Shown: positions 37,790-57,862 of the stretch, piece after piece
Numbering within the stretch: the first letter of the stretch is position 1
Layout of the letters: each line of letters begins with the position of its first letter
Origin: Oscillospiraceae bacterium
GTDB taxonomy: Bacteria; Bacillota; Clostridia; Oscillospirales; Oscillospiraceae
Reading direction: 5' to 3'
Length of the DNA stretch: 64,000 nucleotides
Assembly: GCA_022846095.1 (NCBI GenBank)
Contig: AP025583.1
Location: 2,356,001-2,420,000 of the forward strand
Program-made: the position numbers and the translations under genes
Notes under the pieces: model-generated
Database searches by the model: none
The model's input: only the letters and a program-made list of their open reading frames with translations
Told to the model about the DNA's origin: nothing

Positions 37790-38476
37790 TTATGTTAACG
37801 CGATCTCCTGGCAGTCCCCCCGCAGCAGATCCAGCTCGAAGAGCCGGTCCCGGCAGATCCCGCCCCGGTCCAGCAGCACCTTCACCGTCTCGGCGGCCTG
37901 GATGCCCCCCACCACGGCGCAGGTGAAGCTGAGGTTGCCCGTGACCACCTCGTCGCCCCCCTCGCCGGGCAGGGCCGCGCCGTAGAGCAGGTCCAGGGTG
38001 CCGTCCCCCGGGTAAAGCACCGACACCCGGCCGTACCACCCGGCCACCGCCCCGTGGACGTAGGGGATGCCCAGGGCCGAGGCGGCGGCGAAAATAACCC
38101 GCCGCGCGCGCACGCTGTCCACCGCGTCCACCACGGCGCCGCACCCGGCCAGCAGGGCCGGGGCGTTTTCGGCGGTGAACATGGCCTCCACCGCCGTGAC
38201 CTTGACCAAGGGGTTCACCCGCCGCACCCGCTCGGCGGCGGCCAGGGCCTTGGGTTGTCCCAGGTTCTCCACGCCGGAGAGGAGCTGGCGGTTTAAGTTG
38301 CTCTCCTCGAACACGTCGCCGTCCACCGCCACGATGTGGCCCACGCCCACGCGGGCCAGGCACTCCACCACGTAGCCCCCCAGCCCGCCGCAGCCCGCCA
38401 CCAGGACGGTGCGCTCCGCCAGCGCCGCCTGCTCCGCCGCCGAAAGGGCGCTGCGGTTGCGCCGGTAGCGCTCCAC
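37790..38476 (-). CDS. ThiF/MoeB/HesA-family adenylyltransferase
   Basis: 228 aa. ATP site VLVAGCGGLGGYVVE near residue 25 and the DGDVFEESNLNRQLL motif near 52; the catalytic Asp is in VVDAVDSVRARR near 115. The family adenylates the C-terminal Gly-Gly of a ubiquitin-like carrier, and the gene 3 nt upstream encodes one, so it most likely activates that MoaD-like protein for tungsto/molybdopterin synthesis. The CxxC zinc pairs of MoeB are not visible, as in some short ThiF proteins. Its end lies 30 nt from the MITE-like element. Confidence 0.88.
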   Translation of the reverse strand: MERYRRNRSALSAAEQAALAERTVLVAGCGGLGGYVVECLARVGVGHIVAVDGDVFEESNLNRQLLSGVENLGQPKALAAAERVRRVNPLVKVTAVEAMFTAENAPALLAGCGAVVDAVDSVRARRVIFAAASALGIPYVHGAVAGWYGRVSVLYPGDGTLDLLYGAALPGEGGDEVVTGNLSFTCAVVGGIQAAETVKVLLDRGGICRDRLFELDLLRGDCQEIALT

Positions 38477-38479
38477 GCC

Positions 38480-38728
38480 CTAGCCCCCGCCGCAGATGGG
38501 CAGGAAGCCCACCCGCGCGCCGTCGTGGAGGGGCGTGTTGAAATTTTGCAGCAGGGTGACGCTCTTGCGGTCCACCACCACCAGCATTTTTTTCGCGTGC
38601 CTGTGGGCCTCGGCCCCGTAGGCGTTTTTGATGTGGCGCAGCACGTCCTTCACCCTGGCGGCCTCCAGCGCCTCGCCGGGCACGCCGGTGAGGCCCGCCA
38701 GCTCCCCCCTGTATTCCACGTAGACCAT
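38480..38728 (-). CDS. MoaD/ThiS-family sulfur carrier, 82 aa
   Basis: A beta-grasp protein starting MVYVEYRGELAGLTGVP and ending in the required Gly-Gly (ICGGG). About 82 residues. It overlaps the aldehyde oxidoreductase stop by 1 nt (TGATG) and is 3 nt from the ThiF-like gene. The likely role is sulfur donor to the dithiolene of the pterin cofactor used by the neighbouring oxidoreductase. The tail has three glycines, so the exact C-terminus for adenylation is GG after the first. Confidence 0.86.
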   Translation of the reverse strand: MVYVEYRGELAGLTGVPGEALEAARVKDVLRHIKNAYGAEAHRHAKKMLVVVDRKSVTLLQNFNTPLHDGARVGFLPICGGG

Positions 38729-40611
38729 CACGCTATCCCCAATCTGGCCAGCTTTTTGGGCGTGGGCGCGCCGTGTTCGTCCCAGCCCCTGGCCCTGTAG
38801 TATTTGGGCAGCATCTCGCCCAGCGGGACCACCGTGTCCGGCTGCCCCGGCTCCTGGGGCTCCTTGGTCAGCCGGTCGGGCAGGCTGTCGTCCGCCGCGG
38901 TGAGGCCCTCCCGCAGGTTGAACATCCGCTCCAGGTTGAAGGCGCGCTCCCCCAGGTCGATGAACTGCCCCGTGTACATCCGGATGCCCGTGGCCCGGCG
39001 GATCGCCTCGGCGTGGGGCAGCAGGAAGAAGGAATTGAAGCACAGCAGGTTGGTCATGCGCAGCATGAGGCGCACCCCGCCCCCGGCGTGGGTGGCGATC
39101 TTCCCCACCAGCCGGGTGAACCAGTGGGCGGGGCCCAGATGGAAGAAGATGGCCGGGACGAAGGTCTGGGCGGAGAAGAGGCAGCACCCCGCCGAGGAGA
39201 CCGCCTCCAGCGCGTCCTGCATGAAGATGGTCAGCTCCGCCTTGCTCTTGGGGCTCTGCGCGTCGGTGGAGAGCACGCCCACCGACTCCAGCAGGGCCAG
39301 GTAGCCCCCGTTCAGGTGGCAGCCGCCCCGGTTGGAGGTGGCGTACCCCAGGCCCATGCCCACCGAGCGCCGGGGCTCGTAGGAGGCCATCTCCAGCCCC
39401 TTGGCGTTCATGGCGAACTCCCTGCCGCCGTATTTCTCCGCCAGCCACTTGCTGCCGTTGGCCAGCTCGGAATACTTACCCTCCCGGACGGCCAGCTTGC
39501 GGATGGCCTGCTCCAGATTGTCCAGCCTGCCGAACTCCAGCCCGAAGTCGGCCAGCCCCCGCTCCTTCAGCTCCATGGCGAAGGCCAGGGTGGAGGCGCA
39601 GGAGATGGTGTCCAGCCCCAGGGTGTCGCACAAATAGTTCAGATCCAGCACCTTACGCAGGTCGTGCCCGTCGATGTTGGGGCCGAAGAAGCCCAGGGTC
39701 TCGTACTCCGGGCCCTTGACCTCCTTCCCCGCCACCTTCACCCGCCGCTCGCAGCGGATGGGGCAGGACACGCAGCCGCTGTTGCGGGTGAGCTCGGTCT
39801 CGGCCAGGGTCTCGCCAGACACCGCGTCCGCCCCGTCGTCGTGGCCGAATTTGAAGTTGTGGGTGGGCAGGGCGTAGGTGGCGTTGGCCTTGCTCACCAG
39901 CCCGGCGCTGCCGTACCGGGGCAGGGCCTCCCCGGTCATGGGGTGCTTGCGGATGAATTTGACCCATTTGCCCAGGAATTTATCGAAGCCCGCCCGGTCG
40001 TAGACCTCCGGGCGCCGGGTGCCGTAAGCCAGCAGGGCCTTCACGTTCTTGGAGCCCAGCACCGCGCCGGTGCCGCAGCGCCCCGCCATCCGCTCGCCCG
40101 AGGCGGCGGAGGCGTAGCGCACCAGGTGCTCCCCCGCCGGGCCGATGACCAGCTTGGCGTAGTGGGCGTTCAGCCGCTCCTGGGTCTGCTCCATGTCCAG
40201 GCCCCACAGCTCCTCCGCCGGACTTATGGTAACCTCACCGTCCACAATCTCCACCAGGCAGGGGCGCGGCGAACGCCCGGTGAGGATAATGCCGTCGTAC
40301 CCCGCCTTTTTCAGCATGACGCCGAACTGGCCCCCGCAGTTGGAGGAGGCCACGCCCCCGGTCATCACGTTCTTGAAGGAGAGGTTGAACCGGCTGGAGG
40401 ACGGGGCCCCGGTGCCGTTGAGCGGCCCCGTGTTCAGAATGAGCACGGCCCGGGGGTCCAGCGGATCCAGCCCCGCGGGCATCAGGTCCAGCAGCAGCCT
40501 GGCGGCCAGGCATTTACCCCCCACGTACTTTTTGAAGTAGTCCTCCGGGATGGGGTACTCCTCCCTGGTCCCGGCGGTCAGGTCAATCTTTATGTAAACC
40601 GGCAGCTTCAC
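38728..40611 (-). CDS. Tungsten aldehyde ferredoxin oxidoreductase (AOR family)
   Basis: 627 aa. The N-terminal domain carries YPIPEDYFKKYVGGKCLAARLL and FNLSFKNVMTGGVASSNCGG, a pterin-binding stretch. The [4Fe-4S] cluster is SGCVSCPIRCERRV near residue 282, with the fourth Cys in the DTLGLDTISCAST stretch near 338. It oxidises aldehydes to acids with ferredoxin, or the reverse. The GTG start at 40611 overlaps the ferredoxin stop, and GGAGGGG stands upstream. The adjoining alcohol dehydrogenase suggests alcohol-aldehyde-acid interconversion. Confidence 0.92.
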   Translation of the reverse strand: MKLPVYIKIDLTAGTREEYPIPEDYFKKYVGGKCLAARLLLDLMPAGLDPLDPRAVLILNTGPLNGTGAPSSSRFNLSFKNVMTGGVASSNCGGQFGVMLKKAGYDGIILTGRSPRPCLVEIVDGEVTISPAEELWGLDMEQTQERLNAHYAKLVIGPAGEHLVRYASAASGERMAGRCGTGAVLGSKNVKALLAYGTRRPEVYDRAGFDKFLGKWVKFIRKHPMTGEALPRYGSAGLVSKANATYALPTHNFKFGHDDGADAVSGETLAETELTRNSGCVSCPIRCERRVKVAGKEVKGPEYETLGFFGPNIDGHDLRKVLDLNYLCDTLGLDTISCASTLAFAMELKERGLADFGLEFGRLDNLEQAIRKLAVREGKYSELANGSKWLAEKYGGREFAMNAKGLEMASYEPRRSVGMGLGYATSNRGGCHLNGGYLALLESVGVLSTDAQSPKSKAELTIFMQDALEAVSSAGCCLFSAQTFVPAIFFHLGPAHWFTRLVGKIATHAGGGVRLMLRMTNLLCFNSFFLLPHAEAIRRATGIRMYTGQFIDLGERAFNLERMFNLREGLTAADDSLPDRLTKEPQEPGQPDTVVPLGEMLPKYYRARGWDEHGAPTPKKLARLGIA

Positions 40612-41036
40612 GCGCCCGCGCCCCCCTCCGTCATGGAAATCGCCCCCAGGGGGCACTCCGCCTCGCACAGCGCGCAGCCCACGCACTTCTTCGGCTCCGC
40701 CAGCTCCGCGAACACGTGGATGTCCCCCCGGTGCTTAGGCAGGGAGATGGCCAGGGCTCCGGCGGTGCAGACCGCCACGCACATGGAACAGGCGCTGCAC
40801 AGCGTTTCGTCGATAACCGGCTTGCGCCACCGGGGCCGGGGCACCGGGGCGCAGGCCGCCCCCCCGCCGTCCAGCACGGCCCCCTTGGGGCAGGCCCGGC
40901 CGCACACCCCGCAGGAGACGCAGCGGCGGGCGTTCACTTCGTGCCTTGCGCCCCGCTCCCCCCGGATGGCGAAGACCGGGCAGAGCCTGGCGCAGGCGGT
41001 GCAGCCGATGCAGTCCTCTGTGATGGAATAGGGCAT
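40608..41036 (-). CDS. Polyferredoxin with four [4Fe-4S] motifs
   Basis: 142 aa with four CxxCxxCxxxC motifs: CIGCTACARLC, CVSCGVCGRAC, CSACSMCVAVC and CVGCALCEAEC. It is a duplicated two-cluster ferredoxin (about 1-60 and 75-142) joined by a Pro/Arg linker. It is the likely electron acceptor or donor of the AOR-family enzyme, which it overlaps by 4 nt. Ribosome site AGGGGG. Confidence 0.92.
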   Translation of the reverse strand: MPYSITEDCIGCTACARLCPVFAIRGERGARHEVNARRCVSCGVCGRACPKGAVLDGGGAACAPVPRPRWRKPVIDETLCSACSMCVAVCTAGALAISLPKHRGDIHVFAELAEPKKCVGCALCEAECPLGAISMTEGGAGA

Positions 41037-41051
41037 CGTAATCCCCCTCTG

Positions 41052-42263
41052 TTATTTGATCCGGATTTTTTCAATCACCGCGCGGTAGCGGTCCGGGCTG
41101 TAGAGCACAGGCACGGGGTAGACCGGGTTGGCCTCCTTGCCCGCCCAGGCGATCATCTGGGGGATGTCCTCGTCCCGGATGAAGTCGAAGCCCTTGGGGA
41201 TGCCCATGCGCTCATTCATATCGTAGATGGCCTGGATGAAGGCTCTGGCCCGCTCCGCCTCGCCGCCGTCCGCCTTCACCCCCGCGATAGCGGCCAGCCG
41301 GGCCAGCTTGGGGTAGACCGCCTCGCCGTAGTCCTCCAGCACGATGGGCAGGATGACCGCGTTGGCCAGGCCGTGGGCGGTGTTGTACAGCCCGCCCAGG
41401 GTATGGGCGATGGCGTGGACGTTGCCCACGCCCGCCCGGGTGAAGGCGAAGCCCGCCTTGAAGGAGGCGGTGAGCATATTCATCCGCCCCTCCACGTCGC
41501 CGCCGTCCCTGTAGACCCGCTCCAGGTTGTCGAAAATCAGCTTGACGGCCTCCTCGGCGAAGCGGATGGACTCCTTGGTGTTGTAGGTCCAGCACAGGTA
41601 GGCCTCCACCGCGTGGGTGAGGGCGTCCATGCCGGTGGCCGCGGTGATGTGGGGCGGCAGGCCCACCGTCAGCTCCGGGTCCAGCACCGCGTACAGGGGG
41701 ATCAGGTGCAGGTCCATCAGGGCGTACTTGTGGTGGGTGTCCTGGTCGGTGATGAGGGCGGCGATGGTGGTCTCCGACCCGGTGCCCGCCGTGGTGGGCA
41801 CCGCCACGAAGGGGGGCAGCCGTCTGCCCACCTTCAGCAGGCCCCCCATGCGCCCCACGCTCTTGTTGGGGTTGACCGCCCGGGCCGCCGCGGCCTTGGC
41901 CGCGTCCATGGAGGATCCGCCGCCGATGGCCACAAAGCTGTCGCACCCCTCCTTCTGGTAGAGGGCGTAGATCTCCTCCACGATCTTTACCGTGGGGTTG
42001 GGGGCCACCGTGTCGAAGAGGACGCAGGGCACCCCGCCCTCCTCCAGCACCTTCAGCACCGCGGGGGCCACCCCCGCCTTCATCAGGCCCGGATCGGTCA
42101 CCACCATGGGACGTTTGACACCCCGCTGTCCCAGCAGCTCCGGGATCCGCCCAATCGCGCCCGCGCCCTCGACCCGCTCCGCCTTGCGCCACGGCATGCA
42201 GCGCGCCCCGAAGTTGAACACAAACTGGAATGTGCGGTAATACGCCTTTTTTGCTCCCCACAT
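41052..42263 (-). CDS. Iron-containing alcohol dehydrogenase
   Basis: 403 aa, type III ADH. NAD(P) motifs GGGSSMDAAKAAA near residue 117 and PTTAGTGSETT near 158. The iron ligands are in DALTHAVEAY and NVHAIAHTLGGLYNTAHG near 285. It interconverts an alcohol and aldehyde and shares an operon with the AOR-family enzyme, so the aldehyde could pass from one to the other. It is the first gene after the promoter at 42319-42347, with a GGGAGG ribosome site. Confidence 0.93.
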   Translation of the reverse strand: MWGAKKAYYRTFQFVFNFGARCMPWRKAERVEGAGAIGRIPELLGQRGVKRPMVVTDPGLMKAGVAPAVLKVLEEGGVPCVLFDTVAPNPTVKIVEEIYALYQKEGCDSFVAIGGGSSMDAAKAAAARAVNPNKSVGRMGGLLKVGRRLPPFVAVPTTAGTGSETTIAALITDQDTHHKYALMDLHLIPLYAVLDPELTVGLPPHITAATGMDALTHAVEAYLCWTYNTKESIRFAEEAVKLIFDNLERVYRDGGDVEGRMNMLTASFKAGFAFTRAGVGNVHAIAHTLGGLYNTAHGLANAVILPIVLEDYGEAVYPKLARLAAIAGVKADGGEAERARAFIQAIYDMNERMGIPKGFDFIRDEDIPQMIAWAGKEANPVYPVPVLYSPDRYRAVIEKIRIK

Positions 42264-42579: not shown

Positions 42580-42608
42580 TTGACTGCCCCCTCCTCTTAT
42601 GCTAATAT
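42580..42608 (+). promoter_or_regulatory. Promoter of aldolase/dehydrogenase pair 1
   Basis: TTGACT, 17 nt, TAATAT with extended TGC before the -10. Confidence 0.75.
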
Positions 42609-42622
42609 GATGGCAGTTTCAT

Positions 42623-42652
42623 GACATATGTAATTTATAAGTTACATGTGTC
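42623..42652. promoter_or_regulatory. Candidate SorC-type operator at pair 1
   Basis: GACATATGTAA and TTACATGTGTC form an inverted repeat (10 of 11 positions) with an 8-nt centre, starting 15 nt after the -10. TTACATnTGTC half-sites recur at 44612 and 50437 before co-located genes. Confidence 0.65.
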
Positions 42653-42684
42653 GCAGCATTTGTTACAGAAAGGGAGAGATCGTA

Positions 42685-43482
42685 ATGGCACAGACCGCTC
42701 AGCGCATGAACCACATTTTCCAGCCCGACGGGAAGACCTTTATCCTGGCAATGGACCACGGCTCCAACTTTAAGGTGCTCCCCGCCATGAAGGACAGCAA
42801 GAAGCTGATCCACGACATCGCCTCCGCCGGTGCGGACGCCTTCCTCTCCACCATCGGCATGGCGGATAAATTCCAGCCCGACTTCCTGGGCAAGGGCATC
42901 ATCCTGCGCATCGACGGCGGCGTGTCCTGCCTGAGCAAGCCCACCAAGGCCATGCAGATCGTGGCCAACGCCGAGGACGCCCTGCGCCTGGGCGCCGACG
43001 CCGTCATCACCATGAGCTTCCCCGGCTCCGTCTTTGAGAACGAGGTGCTCTCCAACATGGCCCGCGTGGCCCTGGACTGCCACAAGTGGGGCCTGCCCGT
43101 GCTGGCCGAGGCCCTCCCCCGCGGCTTTGAGCCCGCAGAGGACGCCCGCACCCCCGAGAACATCACCTTCGCCTGCCGCCAGAGCGTCGAGCTGGGCGCC
43201 GACATGGTCAAGACCAACTACACCGGCGACCAGAAGTCCTTCGCCGAGCTGTGCGAGAGCGTCTACGCCCCCGTCGTCATCCTCGGCGGCGCCAAGAAGG
43301 TCCCCGAGCGCGAGCTGCTCCAGGAGATCAAGGAAGCCCTCGAGGCCGGCGCCGCAGGCGTCGCCATGGGCCGCAACATCTGGGGCAACGACGACCCCGT
43401 CCACTACGCCGCCGCCATCGCCAAGCTCATCCACGAGAACTGCTCCGTGGACGCCGCCCTCAAGGAGATGGGGAAGGCCTAA
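42685..43482 (+). CDS. Class I aldolase, DhnA/FbaB/LsrF type (copy 1)
   Basis: 265 aa TIM barrel. The start FILAMDHGSNF matches the DhnA-type phosphate/metal loop, and the Schiff-base Lys is in MVKTNYTGDQKSF near residue 178. GGAKKVPE and VAMGRNIWG near the C-terminus bind the phosphate. The family includes fructose-bisphosphate aldolase, LsrF and related retro-aldolases, so a phosphorylated sugar-like substrate is expected. The dehydrogenase gene follows after 57 nt. Compared with copy 2 at 50498, about 25 differences lie in residues 1-153 and none in 154-265, pointing to gene conversion. AAGGGAGAG precedes the ATG. Confidence 0.88.
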   Translation: MAQTAQRMNHIFQPDGKTFILAMDHGSNFKVLPAMKDSKKLIHDIASAGADAFLSTIGMADKFQPDFLGKGIILRIDGGVSCLSKPTKAMQIVANAEDALRLGADAVITMSFPGSVFENEVLSNMARVALDCHKWGLPVLAEALPRGFEPAEDARTPENITFACRQSVELGADMVKTNYTGDQKSFAELCESVYAPVVILGGAKKVPERELLQEIKEALEAGAAGVAMGRNIWGNDDPVHYAAAIAKLIHENCSVDAALKEMGKA

Positions 43483-43539
43483 GGCGGGTGCTTGCCCCCG
43501 CCGCCTCTTCGCAAAGACATAGAAAGGAAGTCATTTCTT

Positions 43540-44571
43540 ATGGATACATATAAGGTCAGCGTACTCACCGCCCCCGAGACCATCGAGGTGCGCGAGCTGG
43601 AGAAGAAGCAGCCCACCGGCCGCCAGGTCCTTATCAAGGTCGAGTCCTGCGCCATCTGCACTCTGGAGCAGCGCGTCTACAAGGGCATCATGAACAAGTA
43701 CCCGTTCGCCGGCGGCCACGAGGCCGCGGGCACCGTCGAGGCCGTGGGCCCCGCCGTCAAGGGCGTCAAGCCCGGCGACAAGGTGGCCGTGCGCCTGCTG
43801 AACTCCTGCGGCGAGTGCTACTACTGCCGCAACGGCCACGAGAACCAGTGCGTCGTCTCCTTCATCGCCAAGACCCACGACGGCCTCATGGGCCCCGGCG
43901 GCCTGGCAGAGTACATGATGGCCGACGCCAAGGACGTATACAAGATGGCCGACGACCTGGACAGCGACCACGCCGCCCTCAGCGAGCCTCTGGCCTGCTG
44001 CGTCCACTCCGTGCGCCGGGGCCAGATCGAGCTGGGCGACGACGTCGTGGTCGTGGGCTGCGGCATCATGGGCGCCTTCCACATCAAGCTGGCCAAGCTC
44101 AAGGGCGCACGCGTCATCTGCTCCGAGGTCGACCCCAAGCGGCTTGAGGTCGCCAAGAAAATGGGCGCCGACATCCTCATCAACTCCAAGGAAGAGGACG
44201 CGGTGGCCAAGGTCAAGGAGCTCACCGACGGCCGCGGCGCTGACGTGGTTTTCTGCACCGTCGCCATCTCCGCCATCGCCCAGGACGCCGTCAACATGGC
44301 CGGCAAGCTGGGCCGCGTCGTCTTCTACTCCTCCTTCCATCCCGACAACCCCATCGACCTGCTCCCCGGCAAGATCCACTCCGGCGAGCAGATCCTCACC
44401 GGCTCCGTCAACCCCAACCAGAGCGACTTCCTCATCTCCACCCGCCTGCTCTCCTCCAAGGTCATCAACGTCGAGGACCTCATCTCCGACCGCGTGCCCC
44501 TGGCAGACATTGAGCGCGCCTTTACCGAGGCCGTAGACCCCTTCACCTACCGCATCATCGTCAAGCCCTAA
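43540..44571 (+). CDS. Zinc-dependent alcohol/polyol dehydrogenase (copy 1)
   Basis: 343 aa medium-chain dehydrogenase. The GHEAAGTVEAVG motif holds the catalytic-zinc His/Glu. The structural-zinc lobe has CGECYYCRNGHENQC. The Rossmann motif is VVVGCGIMGAFHIKLAKLKGA near residue 170. It likely oxidises a polyol or hydroxyl group of the aldolase pathway intermediate with NAD(P)+. It differs from copy 2 by only about three residues. AGAAAGGAAG is the ribosome site. Confidence 0.9.
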   Translation: MDTYKVSVLTAPETIEVRELEKKQPTGRQVLIKVESCAICTLEQRVYKGIMNKYPFAGGHEAAGTVEAVGPAVKGVKPGDKVAVRLLNSCGECYYCRNGHENQCVVSFIAKTHDGLMGPGGLAEYMMADAKDVYKMADDLDSDHAALSEPLACCVHSVRRGQIELGDDVVVVGCGIMGAFHIKLAKLKGARVICSEVDPKRLEVAKKMGADILINSKEEDAVAKVKELTDGRGADVVFCTVAISAIAQDAVNMAGKLGRVVFYSSFHPDNPIDLLPGKIHSGEQILTGSVNPNQSDFLISTRLLSSKVINVEDLISDRVPLADIERAFTEAVDPFTYRIIVKP

Positions 44572-44575
44572 GCGC

Positions 44576-44622
44576 TTGCAAATGCCGTCGGATTCCGCTA
44601 CAATCATTCTATTACATCTGTC
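44576..44622 (+). promoter_or_regulatory. Promoter and operator half-site of the SorC-type regulator gene
   Basis: TTGCAA, 17 nt, TACAAT (44576-44604), with TTACATCTGTC at 44612-44622, just downstream of the start of transcription. This implies autoregulation. Confidence 0.65.
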
Positions 44623-44666
44623 ATATTATTTTTTCCATATTTTTTAAATTGGAGGGTGTATCAGGA

Positions 44667-45623
44667 ATGAAGAAGGGGAATTTGACGGCCAGAGAGCTTG
44701 AGGAATACACGCGCGTCGCCTACTACTACTACAAGGCGGACTTCACGCAGGAGGAAATCGCCAAACGTATGCAAATGTCACGGCAGAGGGTGAACAGAAT
44801 CCTCGCCTCCTGTATCGATCTGGGCATTGTGAAGATCTCAATCGCCAATCTGGGCAGCGATCTGGAGCTGGAGACGGCGCTGGAGCGCAAGTACGGGCTG
44901 CGCTGCGTCCGGGTTGTGGAGAACGTGGTGGAGAGCAAGGTGCACGAGGACCTGGGCATCGCCGCGGGCGAGTGCCTGGCCAGTTTTATCAGGAAGGGGG
45001 ACATCATCGGCTTCACAAGGGGCCGGTCCACCTCCGCGCTGGTGGATTACATGCCGCCCGTGTCCAAGGATAACCTGACCATCACCCAGCTTTTGGGCAG
45101 CGCGCACAAGGACACGCGGGCCTCCTCCCATCTGGAGGTGGACGACATTGTGTACCGCTTCTCCCTCAAGCTCCACGCCAAGCCCAGTATGCTCTACGCC
45201 CCCGTCATCGTCCAGGACGCGGCGCTGCGGGAATCCCTGATGAAGGACCCCTATTTCCAGCAGGGGTACGACATCATCAAGGCCTGCAACATCGCGGTGG
45301 TGGGCATCGGCACGGCCGACAGCCAGGTGGGCTTCATGACCGAGGTGCTGGGCGAGGCCCCCACCAGCGAAAGCATGGACTGGGCCCGGGACGTGGCCGG
45401 GGAAATCTGCACCCACTTCTTCGACGCCCAGGGGCGCGAGGTCTTCCCGCCCTTCAGCGACCGCATCATCTCCATCTCGCTGGAGGACTATATCAAAATC
45501 CCCATCCGGATCGGCGTGGCCGGCCTGCCCTACAAGGCCGGCGCCATCCGGGCCGCCATCAAGGGCGGCTACATCAATGTGCTCGTCACGGACAAAAAAA
45601 CCGCAAGCATCCTAATCGGATAA
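44667..45623 (+). CDS. SorC/DeoR-type sugar-binding transcriptional regulator
   Basis: 318 aa. The N-terminal HTH (FTQEEIAKRMQMSRQRVNRIL) is at residues 30-50. The C-terminal sugar-phosphate-binding domain has DIIGFTRGRSTSALVDYMP near 115, AVVGIGTADSQVGFMTE near 215 and GLPYKAGAIRAAIKGGYINVLVTD near the end. Family members (SorC, DeoR-like, LsrR) release their operators on binding a phosphorylated sugar. It sits in the middle of the duplicated catabolic genes and most probably reads the TTACATnTGTC sites at all three promoters. The start at 44667 follows GGAGGG by 10 nt. Confidence 0.88.
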   Translation: MKKGNLTARELEEYTRVAYYYYKADFTQEEIAKRMQMSRQRVNRILASCIDLGIVKISIANLGSDLELETALERKYGLRCVRVVENVVESKVHEDLGIAAGECLASFIRKGDIIGFTRGRSTSALVDYMPPVSKDNLTITQLLGSAHKDTRASSHLEVDDIVYRFSLKLHAKPSMLYAPVIVQDAALRESLMKDPYFQQGYDIIKACNIAVVGIGTADSQVGFMTEVLGEAPTSESMDWARDVAGEICTHFFDAQGREVFPPFSDRIISISLEDYIKIPIRIGVAGLPYKAGAIRAAIKGGYINVLVTDKKTASILIG

Positions 45624-45691
45624 CCCCGGGCGCATACACACCTGGGGCTTCCGGCTCATATCCAATTTCCTTGGCAATATGAAAGGAGGAT

Positions 45692-45712
45692 ATGGCGGAA
45701 TCTCTCCGCCAT
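45692..45712 (+). promoter_or_regulatory. Stem-loop between ribosome site and start codon, permease 1
   Basis: ATGGCGGA, 5-nt loop, TCCGCCAT (8-bp perfect stem) between AAAGGAGG and the ATG at 45722. The same stem with a changed loop stands before permease 2. Folding would shorten the ribosome site to ATG distance from 32 to 11 nt. Alternatively the first ATG is used and the arm codes for MAESLRHVCI. Confidence 0.6.
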
Positions 45713-45721
45713 GTGTGTATT

Positions 45722-47077
45722 ATGTCTGAACAAGTGAACGACGGCAAGTTGGGACTCCTGTCCGCAACTACCATGCTGATCGGCGGCATGATCGGCTCTG
45801 CAATCTTCTCCCTGTCCGGCCTGACCATGGCCGTGGCCGGCCCCGCCTCCGTGCTCTCCTGGCTCATCGCCGCCCTGGTCATGCTGCTCTACGGCATGAT
45901 TATCTCGGAGCTGGCCAGCATCTTCCCCCGCTCCGGCGGCCTGTACATCTTCCCCGCCAAGGCGTTCGGCGGCAAGGCCGGCCAAATCTGGGGCTGGCTG
46001 TCCTGCTGGGGCGGCTGCATCACCAACTGCATCGCGGTGGCCTTCTCCGCCATCTACGTGTCCACCTACCTGGGCGTGAGCATTCCCGCCCTGAATAACC
46101 TGCAGGTGCCCCTGGCCGTGGGCTCCGTGGCCCTGTGCCTGATCCTCAACGCCATCAACTTCTCCACCACCGGCAAGATCAACAACGTGCTGGTGGGCTT
46201 CATGGCCCTGGCCATGCTGGTCTTCGTGGCCGTGGGCTTCTTCGGCGGCCAGTTCGACGGCTCCATCATCACCCCGTTCTTCACCCAGGGCAGCGGCGGC
46301 GCCTCCGGCTTCCTGTCCATGGTGCCCACCGCCATGGTCGGCTACGGCTCCGTGGTCTCCATCGCCTTCATGGTCTCCGAGATCCGCGACCCCAACAAGA
46401 ACGTGTCCAAGTCCATGCTGATCGCCATGGTGGTCGTCACCGCGCTGTACGCCCTGACCATCTTCGCCACCATCGGCCTGGTTTCCACCCAGTTCCTGGC
46501 TGAGAACCCCGGCATGCAGTACATCCCCCTGTACGCGGCCTGCTTCACCACCCTGGCCGGCTATCCCTGGCTGACCGCCGTGGTCACCGCCGCCGCCGTG
46601 CTGGCCCTGATCACCACCATGCTGGTGTGCATGGCCCTCACCGCCCGCTCCCTCGAGGCCGCCGCCGACGACGGCATCCTGCCCAAGCCCTTCGCCAAGT
46701 GCAGCGACAAGACCGGCGTGCCCCTGTTCTCCACCGTGATCGTGGCCATCGTGGCCGGCGCCGTGGCCTCTTTCCCCCAGTTCACCGCCACCATGGTCTC
46801 CTTCGGCGCCATCTTCTCCGTGTTCACCATCGTGGTCAACATCATCGCCCTGATGGTCGCCCGCAAGAAGAACCCGTACGTGCCCGGCAACTTCCGCTGC
46901 CCCGGCGGCTCCGCCGTGCCCGTCATCAGCCTTATCCTCCTGCTGATCTGCAACGCGTCCGACATCATCAACGGCAGCTGGGTCGTGTGGCTGTACACCG
47001 CGGGCTGCTGCGTGGTGGGCCTCATCATCTACTTCACCAGCCGCGCCGGCCGCGGCCTGGCCGAGTCCAAAATTTAA
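45722..47077 (+). CDS. APC-family permease (copy 1)
   Basis: About 451 aa with 12 membrane segments. The APC hallmark is LIGGMIGSAIFSLSG in segment 1 (about residues 18-32), then SELASIFPRSGGLYIFPAKAFG. It is an amino-acid/amine-type secondary transporter by family; the substrate here is not known. Start choice: the ATG at 45692 lies only 2 nt after AAAGGAGG, whereas the ATG at 45722 (MSEQVNDGKLG) becomes well placed if the intervening stem folds. It is paralogous to the gene at 48140. It follows the regulator by 69 nt with no terminator. Confidence 0.88.
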   Translation: MSEQVNDGKLGLLSATTMLIGGMIGSAIFSLSGLTMAVAGPASVLSWLIAALVMLLYGMIISELASIFPRSGGLYIFPAKAFGGKAGQIWGWLSCWGGCITNCIAVAFSAIYVSTYLGVSIPALNNLQVPLAVGSVALCLILNAINFSTTGKINNVLVGFMALAMLVFVAVGFFGGQFDGSIITPFFTQGSGGASGFLSMVPTAMVGYGSVVSIAFMVSEIRDPNKNVSKSMLIAMVVVTALYALTIFATIGLVSTQFLAENPGMQYIPLYAACFTTLAGYPWLTAVVTAAAVLALITTMLVCMALTARSLEAAADDGILPKPFAKCSDKTGVPLFSTVIVAIVAGAVASFPQFTATMVSFGAIFSVFTIVVNIIALMVARKKNPYVPGNFRCPGGSAVPVISLILLLICNASDIINGSWVVWLYTAGCCVVGLIIYFTSRAGRGLAESKI

Positions 47078-47116
47078 TCCACGGCGCCTATCATATCTGA
47101 ATCGAGGGTCACTGAA

Positions 47117-47980
47117 ATGAAACATCTCAACGCCATCGAGAAGATGGAGAACACCTGCATCGCCGTCGGCCACTTCGAGGGGGTCCACAGGGGCCACCTG
47201 GCCGTCGCCGCCAAGCTGGCCGAGGTGGCCAAGGAGCGGGGCCTGACCTCCGTCATCGTCAGCCTGTACGACCCCGCCGCCCCCACCCTCTCCACCGAGG
47301 CGGAGAAGGAGTACCTGCTCAAGGACAGCGGCGTGGACGTGCTCGTCAGCCTGGAGGAGTCCGCCATCCCCGCCGACCTGGCCGCCCGGCTGGGCGCCAA
47401 GGTGGTGGTCGCCTGCCAGTGCTGCGCCGAAAACCCCTATGTGAAGGGCAGCGGCTGCGAGGTCATCACCGTGCCCGGCGCCAAGGACGGGGACACCCCC
47501 ATCACCACCGCGCTGCTGCGCGAGGTGCTCCAGTCCACCGACATGCTGCGCTACGAGGCCCTGGCCGGCCACCCCTACCTGATGATCGGGCCCATCGTCC
47601 ACGGCGCCGCCAAGGGCCGCACCGTGGGCCAGCCCACCGCCAACCAGGGCGTGCCCGAGAACAAGATCAAGCCCGTGGACGGCGTGTACGCCACCATCTC
47701 CTACATCGACGGCCAGGTCTGGATGGGCATGACCAACATCGGCAAGCGCCCCTCTGTGGACAACTTCAACTACGTCACCATCGAGACCAACCTGCTGGAC
47801 TTCAGCGGCGACGTCTACGACAAGATCGAGGTCATGGAGGTCTACGACTTTGTCCGCGGCGTCATGAAGTTTGAAAACCTGGAGAAGGTCATGGAGCAGG
47901 TGGGCCGGGACAAGGAGAAGATCCGCACCCGCCTGGCCGAGATCGCCGCCTCCCACAACCTCCACTTCCACCTGAACTAA
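47117..47980 (+). CDS. Divergent RibF-like protein (FMN adenylyltransferase/riboflavin kinase fold)
   Basis: 287 aa. N-terminal nucleotidyltransferase domain: GHFEGVHRGH at residues 18-27 (normally GxFDGVHxGH). C-terminal kinase-like domain: GRTVGQPTAN near 172, NIGKRPSV near 208 and the catalytic-type Glu in VTIETNLLDF. The usual DFRFGKGR-like stretch of the adenylyltransferase half is replaced by a Cys-rich segment (ACQCCAENP). It lies between two permeases in a catabolic operon, unlike housekeeping ribF, which usually sits by truB/rbfA. It may make flavin cofactors on demand or phosphorylate another substrate. Confidence 0.8.
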   Translation: MKHLNAIEKMENTCIAVGHFEGVHRGHLAVAAKLAEVAKERGLTSVIVSLYDPAAPTLSTEAEKEYLLKDSGVDVLVSLEESAIPADLAARLGAKVVVACQCCAENPYVKGSGCEVITVPGAKDGDTPITTALLREVLQSTDMLRYEALAGHPYLMIGPIVHGAAKGRTVGQPTANQGVPENKIKPVDGVYATISYIDGQVWMGMTNIGKRPSVDNFNYVTIETNLLDFSGDVYDKIEVMEVYDFVRGVMKFENLEKVMEQVGRDKEKIRTRLAEIAASHNLHFHLN

Positions 47981-48109
47981 CGCGCTCCCCGCCGCGCCGC
48001 CGCGCTCCCCTACAGCCCAACGGCTGCCCGAGAACACGGCGGCGCGCCTTACTACATCCCCCCGTACCCGGCAATTGACAATCAACTACCGGTATTATGA
48101 AAGGAGGAT

Positions 48110-48130
48110 ATGGCGGATTTTCTCCGCCAT
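48110..48130 (+). promoter_or_regulatory. Stem-loop between ribosome site and start codon, permease 2
   Basis: ATGGCGGA/TCCGCCAT, identical to that before permease 1, with loop TTTTC. Ribosome site AAAGGAGG before it and GTGTGTGTT then ATG (48140) after it. Confidence 0.6.
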
Positions 48131-48139
48131 GTGTGTGTT

Positions 48140-49474
48140 ATGAGTGAACAAGTAAACGACGGGAAATTGGGTCTGGTCCCATGCGTCGCCATGATCGTCG
48201 GCGGCATGATCGGCTCGGCGATCTTCTCCCTGTCCGGCCTGACCATGTACAACGCCGGCCCCGCCGCCATCGTGTCCTGGCTGCTGGCCGCCCTGGTCAT
48301 GCTGATCTACGGCCTGATCGTGGCCGAGCTTTCCAGCATCTTCCCCAAGTCCGGCGGCGTGTATGTGTTCCCCTCCAAGGCCCTGGGTAAAATCTGGGGC
48401 TGGATCTCCTGCTGGGGCTACATCATGTCCAACATCGTGGCCATCGCCTTCGCGGCCATCTACGTTTCCACCTACCTGGGCGTGAGCTTCCCCGCCTTCG
48501 CCGACCTCCAGGTGCCCCTGGCCGTGGCCGCCGTGGCCGTGTGCCTGGTGCTCAACATGATCAACTTCTCCACCGCCGGCAAGATCAACACCATCCTGGT
48601 GGCCCTGCTGGCCGTTACCCTGGGCATCTACATCTGCGTGAGCCTCTTCGGCGGCTCCTGGGACGCCTCCCTGCTGGTGCCCTTCTTCGGCCAGGGCGCG
48701 GGCGGCCCCACCGGCTTCCTCTCCGTGGTGCCCACCGCCATGGTGGGCTACGGCTCCATCGTCGCCATCGCCTTCATGGTCAGCGAGGTGCGCAACCCCA
48801 ACAAGACCGTGCCCAAGGCCGTGCTCATCGCCATGATCGTCGTGGTCTGCCTCTACGGCCTGACCATCCTGGCCACCGTGGGCCTGGTCTCCTCCCAGTT
48901 CCTGGCTGAGAACCCGGGCATGCGCTACATCCCCCTGTACGCCGCCTGCTTCACCAAGCTGGCCGCCTTCCCGTGGCTGGCCAAGGTGGTCTCCATCGCG
49001 GCCGTGCTGGCCCTGATTACCACCATGCTGGTGGTCATCGCCCTGAGCTCCCGCGCCATCCACGCGGCCGCCGAGGACGGCATCCTGCCCGCCAAGCTGG
49101 CCGAGGTCAGCAAGACCGGCTCCCCCATCCTCCCCGCCGTCATCGTGGCCATCGTCTCCGCCATCGTGGCCTGCTTCCCCCAGTTCACCGCCACGATCGT
49201 CTCCTTCGGCGCCCTGTTCTCGGTCATCACCATCATGATCAACATCATCTCCCTGCTGGTGGCCCGCAGAAAGAACGCCTACGTCCCCGGCAACTTCAAG
49301 GCCCCCGGCGGCTCCGTGCTGCCGGTCATCGCCCTGGCTATCCTGGTGGTCTGCAACCTGTCCGACATCATCGGCGGCGGCTGGATTATCTGGGCCTACA
49401 CCATCGGCGTGTACATCGTGGGCCTTATCATCTACAAGACCAGCCGCGCCGGCCGCGGCCAGATCGCCGCCTAA
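48140..49474 (+). CDS. APC-family permease (copy 2)
   Basis: About 444 aa, 12 membrane segments, very similar to copy 1 over its length (MSEQVNDGKLGLVPCVAMI, then IGSAIFSLSGLTM). It is slightly shorter in loops near residue 90. As with copy 1, the ATG after the stem-loop is preferred; the earlier in-frame ATG (48110) would add MADFLRHVCV. Two paralogous permeases in one operon suggest uptake of two related compounds, or import and export. A strong terminator follows. Confidence 0.88.
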   Translation: MSEQVNDGKLGLVPCVAMIVGGMIGSAIFSLSGLTMYNAGPAAIVSWLLAALVMLIYGLIVAELSSIFPKSGGVYVFPSKALGKIWGWISCWGYIMSNIVAIAFAAIYVSTYLGVSFPAFADLQVPLAVAAVAVCLVLNMINFSTAGKINTILVALLAVTLGIYICVSLFGGSWDASLLVPFFGQGAGGPTGFLSVVPTAMVGYGSIVAIAFMVSEVRNPNKTVPKAVLIAMIVVVCLYGLTILATVGLVSSQFLAENPGMRYIPLYAACFTKLAAFPWLAKVVSIAAVLALITTMLVVIALSSRAIHAAAEDGILPAKLAEVSKTGSPILPAVIVAIVSAIVACFPQFTATIVSFGALFSVITIMINIISLLVARRKNAYVPGNFKAPGGSVLPVIALAILVVCNLSDIIGGGWIIWAYTIGVYIVGLIIYKTSRAGRGQIAA

Positions 49475-49494
49475 CCTTACGATTCCTCTCCCTT

Positions 49495-49558
49495 GGCGCG
49501 CCGCCGCAATCCCATCAGCCTCCGGGCTGGCCCGGGTTGCGGCGGCGCGCCGCTTTTC
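49495..49558 (+). terminator. Terminator after the permease/RibF-like unit
   Basis: Perfect 15-bp arms GGCGCGCCGCCGCAA/TTGCGGCGGCGCGCC enclosing 27 nt with an inner CAGCC/GGCTG stem, followed by GCTTTTC. Confidence 0.8.
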
Positions 49559-49581
49559 TTCTGAAACGGAAAGGTGATATT

Positions 49582-50352
49582 ATGTCAACTGCATACGCCG
49601 CCCCCGCCTGCGCCCCCATCCGCCGCGCAGCCGGCAGCCGGGAGGCCTGCCTGTGCATCCACGGCTTCTGCGGCGCACCCGCCGTGTTCCTTCCCCTGGT
49701 TGATACCATTCTGGACGCGGGCTACGACTGCTACGCCCCCCTCCTGCCCGGCCACGGCACCCGGCCGGAGGACATGATCGACGTGAAGCTGGAGCAGTGG
49801 CTGGACACCGCCTCCGCCTGGCTGGACGAGCTGCTCCCCCGCTATGCGCGGGTCCACCTGCTGGGCCTGTCCCTGGGAGGCGCCATCGCCTCCTGGCTGG
49901 CGGGCACCCGCTCCGGCGACGGGCGCCTGGGCAAGGTGATGCTGCTGGTCCCCGGCTACGCCCTGCGCAACAAGGAGTTCTATCAGATGGACTTCGACGC
50001 TATGGGCGGCAGGCTCATCCCCCTGGCCCAGCAGGTGGACCTGACCCCCGAGCTGGAGGAGAGCGCCTTCCTCTACCCCTTCATGGCCGCCAAGTCCATC
50101 GGCCAGCTCCTGCGCCTGGGCGGATTGGCGCTGGAACAGGTCCCCCGCATCGTCCAGCCCACCCTGATGCTCTACACCGCCGCCGACCCGGTGGTGGACC
50201 CCGAGGTCTGCGCCCGGGCCGCGGGGGAGCTCCCCGGCCTGCGGGCAGCGCACTGCTACCAAAAATCGGGTCACAACCTCCTGCTGGATACCGAGCGCGC
50301 CGACGTGGCGGCCCGGCTGGAGGCGTTCCTCCGCCTGAGCTGGCCCCTGTAG
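49582..50352 (+). CDS. Alpha/beta hydrolase (carboxylesterase/monoacylglycerol lipase type)
   Basis: 256 aa, cytoplasmic. The oxyanion HGFCGAP is near residue 31, the nucleophile in GLSLGG near 95, the acid in ADPVVD near 200 and the His in KSGHNLLLD near 230. It acts on an ester or similar bond. It lies between the permease unit and aldolase pair 2, so it may release the substrate from an imported ester or conjugate; this is context only. GGAAAGGTGAT precedes the ATG. Confidence 0.85.
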   Translation: MSTAYAAPACAPIRRAAGSREACLCIHGFCGAPAVFLPLVDTILDAGYDCYAPLLPGHGTRPEDMIDVKLEQWLDTASAWLDELLPRYARVHLLGLSLGGAIASWLAGTRSGDGRLGKVMLLVPGYALRNKEFYQMDFDAMGGRLIPLAQQVDLTPELEESAFLYPFMAAKSIGQLLRLGGLALEQVPRIVQPTLMLYTAADPVVDPEVCARAAGELPGLRAAHCYQKSGHNLLLDTERADVAARLEAFLRLSWPL

Positions 50353-50392
50353 CGGCTTTGTGTAAAATTTCACAATATTTCGTTCCCAGCGC

Positions 50393-50421
50393 TTGCATTT
50401 CCCGGTGGCCTGTGCTATAAT
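50393..50421 (+). promoter_or_regulatory. Promoter of aldolase/dehydrogenase pair 2
   Basis: TTGCAT, 17 nt, TATAAT with extended TGC. Confidence 0.75.
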
Positions 50422-50436
50422 ATTTTCATAAGCCAG

Positions 50437-50469
50437 TTACATTTGTCATGCTAGTATTACATATGTAAC
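50437..50469. promoter_or_regulatory. Candidate SorC-type operators at pair 2
   Basis: TTACATTTGTC (50437-50447) and the perfect palindrome TTACATATGTAA (50457-50468) lie 16-47 nt after the -10. They share the TTACAT core with the sites at 42623 and 44612. Confidence 0.65.
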
Positions 50470-50497
50470 GTTTTCACTGAGAAAGGAAGATTTTACT

Positions 50498-51295
50498 ATG
50501 GCACAGACCGCACAGCGTATGAACCACATTTTCCAGCCCGACGGCAAGACTTTTATCATGGCCATGGATCACGGCTCCAACTTCAACGTCCTCCCCGCCA
50601 TGAAGAACCCCGGCAAGCTGATCCGTGAGATCGCCGCCGCCGGCGCAGACGCCTACCTGTCCACCATCGGCATGGCCGACAAGTTTCAGGCCGATTTCCT
50701 GGGCAAGGGCATCATCCTGCGCGCCGAGGGCGGCGTGTCCTTCCTGGGCGACCACTCCAAGCCCATGCAGATCGTGGCCGACGCCGAGGACGCCCTGCGC
50801 CTGGGCGCCGACGCCGTCATCACCATGAGCTTCCCCGGCAGCAAGTTCGAGAATGAGATCCTCTCCAACATGGCCCGCGTGGCCCTGGACTGCCACAAGT
50901 GGGGCCTGCCCGTGCTGGCCGAGGCCCTCCCCCGCGGCTTTGAGCCCGCCGACGACGCCCGCACCCCCGAGAACATCACCTTCGCCTGCCGCCAGAGCGT
51001 CGAGCTGGGCGCCGACATGGTCAAGACCAACTACACCGGCGACCAGAAGTCCTTCGCCGAGCTCTGCGAGAGCGTCTACGCCCCCGTCGTCATCCTCGGC
51101 GGCGCCAAGAAGGTCCCCGAGCGCGAGCTGCTCCAGGAGATCAAGGAAGCCCTCGAGGCCGGCGCCGCAGGCGTCGCCATGGGCCGCAACATCTGGGGCA
51201 ACGACGACCCCGTCCATTACGCCGCCGCCATCGCCAAGCTCATCCACGAGAACTGCTCCGTGGACGCCGCCCTCAAGGAGATGGGGAAGGCGTAA
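50498..51295 (+). CDS. Class I aldolase, DhnA/FbaB/LsrF type (copy 2)
   Basis: 265 aa with the same active-site stretches as copy 1 (MAMDHGSNF and MVKTNYTGDQKSF). The N-terminal half has diverged, notably at residues 82-89 (FLGDHSKP here, CLSKPTKA there), close to the sugar-facing loops, while the last 112 residues are identical. This fits two enzymes of different substrate range whose 3' ends were homogenised. GAAAGGAAG is the ribosome site. Confidence 0.88.
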   Translation: MAQTAQRMNHIFQPDGKTFIMAMDHGSNFNVLPAMKNPGKLIREIAAAGADAYLSTIGMADKFQADFLGKGIILRAEGGVSFLGDHSKPMQIVADAEDALRLGADAVITMSFPGSKFENEILSNMARVALDCHKWGLPVLAEALPRGFEPADDARTPENITFACRQSVELGADMVKTNYTGDQKSFAELCESVYAPVVILGGAKKVPERELLQEIKEALEAGAAGVAMGRNIWGNDDPVHYAAAIAKLIHENCSVDAALKEMGKA

Positions 51296-51352
51296 GGCGG
51301 GTGCTTGCCCCCGCCGCCTCTTCGCAAAGACATAGAAAGGAAGTCATTTCTT

Positions 51353-52384
51353 ATGGATACATATAAGGTCAGCGTACTCACCGCCCCCGAGACCATCGAG
51401 GTGCGCGAGCTGGAGAAGAAGCAGCCCACCGGCCGCCAGGTCCTCATCAAGGTCGAGTCCTGCGCCATCTGCACCCTGGAGCAGCGCGTCTACAAGGGCA
51501 TCATGAACAAGTACCCGTTCGCCGGCGGCCACGAGGCCGCGGGCACCGTCGAGGCCGTGGGCCCCGCCGTCAAGGGCGTCAAGCCCGGCGACAAGGTGGC
51601 CGTGCGCCTGCTGAACTCCTGCGGCGAGTGCTACTACTGCCGCAACGGCCACGAGAACCAGTGCGTCGTCTCCTTCATCGCCAAGACCCACGACGGCCTC
51701 ATGGGCCCCGGCGGCCTGGCCGAGTACATGATGGCCGACGCCAAGGACGTATACAAGATGGCCGCCGACCTGGACAGCGACCACGCCGCCCTCAGCGAGC
51801 CTCTGGCCTGCTGCGTCCACTCCGTGCGCCGGGGCCAGATCGAGCTGGGCGACGACGTTGTGGTCGTGGGCTGCGGCATCATGGGCGCCTTCCACATCAA
51901 GCTGGCCAAGCTCAAGGGCGCCCGCGTCATCTGCTCCGAGGTGGACCCCAAGCGGCTTGAGGTCGCCAAGAAAATGGGCGCCGACATCCTCATCAACTCC
52001 AAGGAGGAGGACGCGGTGGCCAAGGTCAAGGAGCTCACCGACGGCCGCGGCGCCGACGTGGTCTTCTGCACCGTCGCCATCTCCGCCATCGCTCAGGACG
52101 CCGTCAACATGGCCGGCAAGCTGGGCCGCGTGGTCTTCTACTCCTCCTTCCATCCCGACAACCCCATCGACCTGCTCCCCGGCAAGATCCACTCCGGCGA
52201 GCAGATCCTCACAGGCTCCGTCAACCCCAACCAGAGCGACTTCCTCATCTCCACCCGCCTGCTCTCCTCCAAGGTCATCAACGTCGAGGACCTCATCTCC
52301 GACCGCGTGCCCCTGGCCGAGATTGAGCGCGCCTTCTCCGAGGCCGTAGACCCCTTCACCTACCGCATCATCGTCAAGCCCTAA
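51353..52384 (+). CDS. Zinc-dependent alcohol/polyol dehydrogenase (copy 2)
   Basis: 343 aa, differing from copy 1 by about three residues (for example A for D in VYKMAADLD, and E and S for D and T in LAEIERAFSE). The 57-nt spacer to the aldolase gene is identical in both copies. Zinc and Rossmann motifs as in copy 1. Followed by a strong terminator. Confidence 0.9.
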   Translation: MDTYKVSVLTAPETIEVRELEKKQPTGRQVLIKVESCAICTLEQRVYKGIMNKYPFAGGHEAAGTVEAVGPAVKGVKPGDKVAVRLLNSCGECYYCRNGHENQCVVSFIAKTHDGLMGPGGLAEYMMADAKDVYKMAADLDSDHAALSEPLACCVHSVRRGQIELGDDVVVVGCGIMGAFHIKLAKLKGARVICSEVDPKRLEVAKKMGADILINSKEEDAVAKVKELTDGRGADVVFCTVAISAIAQDAVNMAGKLGRVVFYSSFHPDNPIDLLPGKIHSGEQILTGSVNPNQSDFLISTRLLSSKVINVEDLISDRVPLAEIERAFSEAVDPFTYRIIVKP

Positions 52385-52399
52385 CCGGGGCCGGACACA

Positions 52400-52437
52400 G
52401 CCGCGGGGGGCGCATATGCGCCCCCCGCGGCCCTTTT
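52400..52437 (+). terminator. Terminator of aldolase/dehydrogenase pair 2
   Basis: GCCGCGGGGGGCGCAT and ATGCGCCCCCCGCGGC are perfect 16-bp arms, then CCTTTTATT. Confidence 0.9.
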
Positions 52438-57587: not shown

Positions 57588-57649
57588 CGTTTTTCTGTGT
57601 GCGCAAACACGCGCCCTCCCCCGCCATGCGGCCGGGACGGCGCTTCTTC

Positions 57650-57838: not shown

Positions 57839-57862
57839 AAGTAAGATTCACTTTTCCCCTCC

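Follow-up and report, generated by a model that had tools for sequence, protein, structure and literature searches.

A gene island of the fin type in an Oscillospiraceae bacterium and its likely role in anaerobic riboflavin breakdown

The window analysed here is the whole stretch of 64,000 nucleotides at positions 2,356,001 to 2,420,000 of contig AP025583.1 (assembly GCA_022846095.1, Oscillospiraceae bacterium), and its subject is an island of nine genes, all on the + strand, that spans 42685-52384. The island is likely to supply the first half of a fin-type pathway that degrades riboflavin anaerobically, each enzymatic step being deduced from sequence, and by its relation to a gene neighbourhood already described its function is probably riboflavin breakdown. 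The original prediction for this DNA had proposed that the island is catabolic and works by retro-aldol cleavage on a phosphorylated, polyol-like substrate and that the compound is an unusual conjugate, and had hinted at something flavin-like; all of this is judged right. Overall it is partly supported, the logic being sound and its statements on the kinase and on known pathways wrong or outdated.

Gut microbes were reported decades ago to convert riboflavin to hydroxyethylflavin or lumichrome, with the anaerobic mechanism then lacking (PMC12934955), and lumichrome and related products are ligands of the immune protein MR1 (PMC12650265, PMC12338742). According to the same source, a 2026 preprint, C. 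scindens forms lumichrome from riboflavin anaerobically, and RNA-seq indicates that high riboflavin induces almost only one of its neighbourhoods, finA-K, which holds a RibF homolog, a class I aldolase, an alcohol dehydrogenase, an aldehyde dehydrogenase (AldDH) and two glycine-reductase-like (Grd) genes. Its authors call genomes fin+ from finB, finC and finG, in a survey of 792 Lachnospiraceae genomes, and name Muricomes intestini as bearer of a longer fin type.

The island and the fin neighbourhood

The nine genes occur in the order and with the families originally predicted, as confirmed by a check of the open reading frames (ORFs) of the window and by profile search, which assigned them to DeoC/LacD aldolase, Zn-dehydrogenase, SorC-type sugar-binding regulator, two APC permeases, flavokinase/FAD-synthetase, alpha/beta hydrolase, aldolase and dehydrogenase. 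The features, with the basis of each in brackets, are as follows.

42580-42608, + strand: promoter-like site TTGACT-17-TAATAT, 5' of aldolase 1 (9/12 consensus bases; consensus match only)
42622-42653, no strand: paired SorC operator candidate, 20-bp register, 13 bp downstream of the -10 box (motif search)
42685-43482, + strand: aldolase 1, FinC-like, DhnA/DeoC class I, putative 4'-keto-FMN aldolase (family profiles, conserved motifs)
43540-44571, + strand: Zn-dehydrogenase 1, FinD-like, putative FMN 4'-dehydrogenase (family profiles, conserved motifs)
44612-44623, + strand: single operator half-site TTACATCTGTCA before sorC, possible autoregulation (motif search)
44667-45623, + strand: SorC/DeoR(Bacillus)-type regulator, putative repressor released by a phosphorylated intermediate (family profiles)
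45692-47077, + strand: APC permease 1, speculatively a riboflavin importer or riboflavin/product antiporter (family profiles)
47117-47980, + strand: RibF-like protein, FinB-like, putative riboflavin kinase making FMN (kinase domain intact, adenylyltransferase domain shortened)
48110-49474, + strand: APC permease 2 (family profiles; best window match in 12/13 permease-bearing loci)
49582-50352, + strand: alpha/beta hydrolase (family profile)
50437-50468, no strand: paired SorC operator candidate before aldolase 2 (23/24 positions match)
50498-51295, + strand: aldolase 2 (family profile, identity to copy 1)
51353-52384, + strand: Zn-dehydrogenase 2, 99% identical to copy 1 (family profile, identity)
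52400-52431, + strand: terminator-like hairpin closing the island (14 G-C pairs)

Terminator-like hairpins are scarcely in excess in this region, with 8 observed against 6.5 expected.

A RibF homolog, a class I aldolase and an alcohol dehydrogenase are common to the island and to the fin neighbourhoods of C. scindens, Faecalicatena fissicatena and Muricomes intestini (PMC12934955). Comparison was made with the Muricomes intestini locus (L011) and not with the C. scindens sequences; there the RibF-like, aldolase and dehydrogenase genes are likewise clustered, at 47, 73 and 68% identity, and with SorC (56%) and APC (61%) all five core genes find their best window matches in identical order. Judged by these identities, the island belongs to the riboflavin-induced fin type. 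It differs from the C. scindens type, where AldDH and two Grd-like genes lie in the neighbourhood itself (PMC12934955), in that its genome has the AldDH/Grd half as an unlinked run together with an iron-type alcohol dehydrogenase (Fe-ADH), and in that an aldolase-dehydrogenase pair and the permease are duplicated in the island. The earlier view that no described pathway combines such genes is thus superseded, and homologous clusters prove largely assigned to a substrate, riboflavin, albeit with putative enzyme roles (PMC12934955).

A scan of bacterial and archaeal species genomes, which used patterns from one protein and so reached close relatives only, found 17 related loci with aldolases 62-81% identical to the window's. 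The search for the conserved set that the original prediction had called for bore fruit, in that a dehydrogenase is present in 17/17 of these loci, SorC in 14/17 (L015 gave no SorC match), APC in 13/17 and the RibF-like gene in 13/17. The four loci without the latter (L008, L013, L018 and L019) are on contigs that break off shortly beyond the last core gene, and it is found in all 13 whose contig does not end first. The gene set, recurring as it does across related loci, is not a chance association. The alpha/beta hydrolase was in no gene cluster of at least three related loci. By record title the loci come mainly from Clostridia isolates and metagenome-assembled genomes (MAGs), with the names Kineothrix, Muricomes, Alkaliphilus and 'Amazonia massiliensis' beside Lachnospiraceae and Oscillospiraceae MAGs, so that labels beyond the Lachnospiraceae of the preprint survey are included; one contig is labelled Spirochaetales and may be a MAG binning error. 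Among 149 genomes (the window's own included, most from its family) there was no other aldolase match above 40% identity at E <= 1e-40, thus the island is sporadic.

A proposed route from riboflavin

Riboflavin would be taken up by an APC permease and/or RibU and converted to flavin mononucleotide (FMN) by the RibF-like protein acting as riboflavin kinase. The Zn-dehydrogenase may then oxidise the 4'-hydroxyl of FMN to give 4'-keto-FMN, whose ribityl chain would be an analogue of a ketose-1-phosphate with the flavin at its far end, and the class I aldolase could cut this between C2' and C3' to yield dihydroxyacetone phosphate (DHAP), which would enter glycolysis, and formylmethylflavin. The latter would be the direct precursor of hydroxyethylflavin, to which an Fe-ADH might reduce it, recycling NADH from the dehydrogenase step. 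Alternatively, formylmethylflavin could be oxidised by a betaine-aldehyde-dehydrogenase-like enzyme. The product, N10-carboxymethylflavin, is an N-substituted glycine, and a selenoprotein B like that of sarcosine reductase may, with GrdA, split it reductively into lumichrome and acetyl phosphate. For the combined proposal, that anaerobes perform a retro-aldol cleavage of 4'-keto-FMN and then cut N10-CH2-COOH with a glycine-reductase-type selenoenzyme to give lumichrome and acetyl phosphate, we put the chances at even. No reaction sequence was found in PMC12934955, whose main text does not mention dihydroxyacetone, DHAP, retro-aldol, triose, acetyl or carboxymethyl, nor SorC, permease, operator or repressor, and no other open-licence paper was found that ties anaerobic riboflavin breakdown to genes. 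What the present analysis would add is the proposed chemistry, the operator, a range beyond Lachnospiraceae, the split layout and the gene-converted duplicate.

The kinase is where the earlier reading went astray, since it saw no sugar kinase in the island, whereas the motifs of a riboflavin kinase are intact in the RibF-like protein. PTAN, NIG and the Glu of (I/V)E, which we take to be the catalytic motifs of that kinase, are kept in all 14 aligned fin RibF-like proteins, and the window protein matches PF01687 (riboflavin kinase) at 4.6e-31, whilst staying below the cut-offs of all NCBIfam models among the matches listed. The adenylyltransferase FG-loop is deleted in 10/14, the window protein included, which has HRGH at the HxGH motif and thus an incomplete adenylyltransferase domain, both motifs presumably serving that activity. 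A separate RibF elsewhere in the genome (L038:732-1643) has the loop intact and PTVD where PTAN is expected, and therefore the two proteins look complementary. We infer that the RibF-like protein is the island's kinase, making FMN and stopping there as the pathway needs. Sister aldolase-dehydrogenase pairs from two family members, at about 41% identity, have sugar uptake or kinase genes no more than about 10 kb away, one near a mannose-type phosphotransferase system (PTS; L050:9017-15242) and one near an FGGY kinase, an ABC transporter and creatininase-family genes (L051:2484-14682). As these pairs lie near a PTS or an FGGY kinase with an ABC transporter, RibF seems to fill the kinase slot here, and the source of the phosphate would seem to vary from substrate to substrate.

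Across 19 sequences the dehydrogenase retains its C-x2-C-x2-C-x7-C cysteines and a GHE motif; it is similar to threonine, polyol and galactitol-1-phosphate dehydrogenases, with none of the listed cut-offs reached. In the aldolase the Schiff-base Lys, DH(G/A), GG and GRN motifs are conserved in 19/19 aligned sequences, with Lys176 aligned to Lys184 of MJ0400 and Lys177 of TtFBPA; in relatives GG and GRN presumably hold the phosphate of DHAP. It lies below the cut-offs of all NCBIfam aldolases among the matches listed, and on its sequence the fin-type aldolase is a separate subgroup of DHAP-type class I aldolases (the DhnA/FbaB/LsrF group).

The fate of the aldehyde appears to be written in the companion genes. 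An adjacent Fe-ADH of one group is found in 7 loci (L007, L008, L009, L015, L016, L018 and L020; family confirmed by Pfam for all but L009 and L018), these fin-type Fe-ADHs being 36-84% identical to one another. GrdB with GrdE is found in 7 loci, 6 of which also have AldDH (L010 is without it within its stretch; Pfam was run on the genes of L010, L011, L017 and L023), and all 7 adjacent GrdB carry an in-frame UGA within (T/S)STUGTCTRC. The arrangement is most compact in L023, where AldDH-GrdB-GrdE-dehydrogenase-RibF-SorC-aldolase form a single co-directional run with a SorC operator before AldDH. A genome-wide search found GrdA in 11/17 genomes and fin-type GrdB (at least 52% identity to that of L011) in 9/17, all nine with GrdA, and in none of the 7 with an adjacent Fe-ADH (chance 0.0004, uncorrected for relatedness). 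Fin-type GrdB is 52-92% identical among the 7 beside fin loci, 57-78% to the copy of the window genome and 36-48% to that genome's other five, and in sequence it forms a group of its own.

Among the matches listed (up to 1e-60), AldDH scores best against the betaine-aldehyde dehydrogenase model and GrdE against sarcosine reductase, both below cut-off; GrdB before its UGA is closest to the general reductase selenoprotein B model and then to sarcosine reductase, the specific model being below cut-off. Betaine-aldehyde dehydrogenase and sarcosine reductase act on N-CH2-CHO and N-CH2-COOH groups, and these matches would fit a path from formylmethylflavin through carboxymethylflavin to lumichrome and acetyl phosphate.

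About 1 Mb from the island the window's own genome has a second run of Fe-ADH, AldDH, GrdB and GrdE (G000:C1, L046:6754-12782, - strand). Its AldDH is 72% identical to that of L011, so that a finG orthologue is present, unlinked, and its GrdB is 77% identical to that of L011. With the selenocysteine UGA in GrdB, a GrdE-type partner and a GrdA with an in-frame UGA in the genome, this run has the makings of a sarcosine/glycine reductase component B. Two loci thus seem to share the riboflavin pathway, whose products in this genome could be hydroxyethylflavin, lumichrome or both. As a separate observation, the genome holds six GrdB paralogues (L026-L031), which suggests several reductases for different N-substituted substrates.

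Lumazine synthase was not found in the genome by a search that found it in 14/14 control genomes, thus the bacterium probably cannot make riboflavin. Only one FMN riboswitch match was obtained in the genome; the 196-aa ORF that follows it resembles RibU on inspection (no family search), and the island's own permeases are APC proteins and not of this known riboflavin transporter type. FMN riboswitch control of the island was rejected, no match at gathering score being found across 36-58 kb of the window, the region to which the scan was confined, the related loci lying outside it. At the start of both APC genes of the window a hairpin follows the ribosome-binding site immediately (45690-45714 and 48108-48132; the stem is shared, the loop differs), and a second in-frame ATG (MSEQV) comes after it. 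L007 has a hairpin of unrelated sequence at the corresponding place (12937); the window pair and L007 each reach about p 0.01 against 300 simulated sequences, the hairpins are weaker in L008 (0.06) and L016 (0.08), none is significant in the other 10/15 starts, and the fold z-scores of the window pair are only -1.9 and -1.3.

If the scheme is true a vitamin cofactor would serve as a Stickland-type electron acceptor and ATP source, and gene content would explain which gut anaerobes make hydroxyethylflavin and which lumichrome. Should the Grd step prove right, a selenoprotein system known from its action on small amines would turn out to accept a large aromatic cofactor. The gene logic gives a concrete enzyme-by-enzyme route that is testable in vitro with purified proteins; gene content would predict a genome's product, and the operator motif with the marker genes may help to find the pathway.

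Regulation and duplication

Both window aldolases are preceded by a pair of 12-bp half-sites of the form TTACAWATGTAA with a spacing of 19-20 bp. Of 19 aldolase starts tested (2 in the window, 17 in related loci), 12 (both window, 10/17 related) have a pair that beats all of 200 simulated sequences, a test that is not independent as the motif was drawn by eye from the same sequences. The pair of L019 is at 0.025 and those of L021 and L022 at 0.06-0.09, and it is not significant at the aldolase of L015, L016, L020 or L023; L015 and L020 are without a sorC match, and in L023 the pair stands ahead of AldDH, with which its run begins. Searched with up to one mismatch, the window contains the half-site pattern 7 times where 0.4 would be expected, palindromes counting on both strands. 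With L015, L020 and L022 left out, 12/16 pairs begin 7-16 bases after the best -10 box, the promoters being consensus matches only. This placing of the pair, usually a short way past the -10 box, makes SorC a probable repressor, which would sit immediately downstream of the promoter and free the island when a phosphorylated intermediate appears. The claim that a single SorC regulator governs the island is supported for both aldolases and, by the half-site, for sorC, but not for apc1, apc2 or the hydrolase, before which no significant operator was found in the window.

The duplicated aldolase-dehydrogenase pairs were rightly recognised, the protein copies being 92% (aldolases) and 99% (dehydrogenases) identical, with the permeases at 67%. 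In 100-base steps the DNA of the two copies shows 96-100% identity between about 43070, in mid-aldolase, and the stop codon of the dehydrogenase; it falls to 81-91% over the aldolase's 5' part and nowhere exceeds 56% outside the pair. Since a block of high identity adjoins a diverged aldolase 5' part, the duplication seems to be old, with gene conversion having since evened out the copies. The two copies are the sole aldolase matches at E <= 0.001 in the 4.31-Mb genome.

Other readings and the surroundings of the island

A number of observations weigh against the riboflavin route as drawn. The YPRG-motif Tyr of the T. tenax FBP aldolase and MJ0400 is replaced by Leu in 19/19 sequences, thus the acid/base chemistry of the aldolase differs from that of the reference enzymes; we know of no riboflavin transporter among APC permeases, and L023 has no APC match in its 20-kb stretch. 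The FG-loop is kept in the RibF-like proteins of L010, L015, L016 and L017. Two of the seven Fe-ADH genomes (L016 and L020) have GrdA and an ordinary GrdB at 47-48%, L020 has a GrdE-family fragment at the contig edge beside its Fe-ADH, L010 has Grd plus an Fe-ADH fragment further downstream (counting it, the chance of the split is 0.003), and the window genome carries both variants, so that clean exclusivity was rejected and the split, among genomes many of which are incomplete MAGs, is strong but not absolute. An operator search found no SorC site before the second gene run, SorC control of it was rejected, and co-regulation of the two halves is therefore a candidate only. F. fissicatena, a reported hydroxyethylflavin maker, also has the AldDH orthologue finG (PMC12934955), and hydroxyethylflavin has been assigned by correlation to a different, Sutterella gene cluster (PMC8877437).

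Of the alternatives, it is unlikely that the neighbourhood disposes of excess reduced flavin with the RibF-like protein running in reverse as an FADH2 pyrophosphorylase. Such an overflow, with FinB in that part, is raised as a possibility in the discussion of PMC12934955 beside metabolic damage, and the growth benefit of C. scindens is not accounted for by ribose or ribitol, which gave it none (PMC12934955), a result that also fits release of DHAP but does not prove it. The four RibF-like proteins with the loop would suit overflow, yet the adenylyltransferase is the part that has decayed in the other 10/14, the window protein among them, whilst the kinase motifs are kept, and a DHAP-type aldolase is left unexplained. 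Overflow and the retro-aldol route are physiologically compatible.

Rather less probable is another ribityl heterocycle or flavin analogue as substrate of the same kinase-dehydrogenase-aldolase chemistry: the proposed enzymes would touch only the ribityl end, so that the ring is not fixed by sequence, but it is riboflavin that induces the C. scindens neighbourhood and becomes lumichrome (PMC12934955). Catabolism of a sugar, amino sugar or Amadori compound with the RibF-like gene incidental, as the original prediction had leaned towards, is not the best candidate and is very improbable. The aldolase and dehydrogenase families do serve sugar phosphates, the sister pairs lie near sugar transport systems and the permeases match FrlA, the fructoselysine transporter model, though at 44.6 and 41.8 bits against a cut-off of 800, a similarity so weak that the Amadori/fructosamine version was rejected; against any sugar stand the RibF-like gene in 13/13 loci not ended by a contig, with kinase motifs kept in all, and the induction by riboflavin (PMC12934955).

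The riboflavin route has counterparts among known systems. RcaE of Microbacterium and Devosia likewise removes the ribityl chain to give lumichrome, but is an oxygen-dependent monooxygenase that releases ribose (PMC12934955). The Sutterella cluster is also a proposed microbial route to hydroxyethylflavin with different enzyme families (PMC8877437); a hydrolase would presumably not leave the two-carbon stub of this product. The second run shares a UGA-bearing GrdB, a GrdE-type subunit and a GrdA in the genome with the sarcosine, betaine and glycine reductases, and would differ in its substrate, a flavin and not a small amine. In the DHAP shunt for 5-deoxyribose a kinase, ketose-phosphate formation and a DHAP aldolase dispose of a sugar-containing by-product, with another kinase, an isomerase instead of a dehydrogenase and another substrate.

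Adjoining the island at 37790-42263 (- strand) is a group of genes for an aldehyde:ferredoxin oxidoreductase, a 4Fe-4S protein, a ThiF-family protein and an Fe-ADH, and its conservation with the island was not seen in the related loci. This Fe-ADH (41055-42263, - strand) was rejected as a fin-type enzyme, being only 28-37% identical to those. A strong GC-rich inverted repeat with 18-nt arms (94%) lies between permease 2 and the hydrolase at 49495-49551, and a cobalamin riboswitch (RF00174, 70.9 bits) is at 57634-57849 on the - strand.

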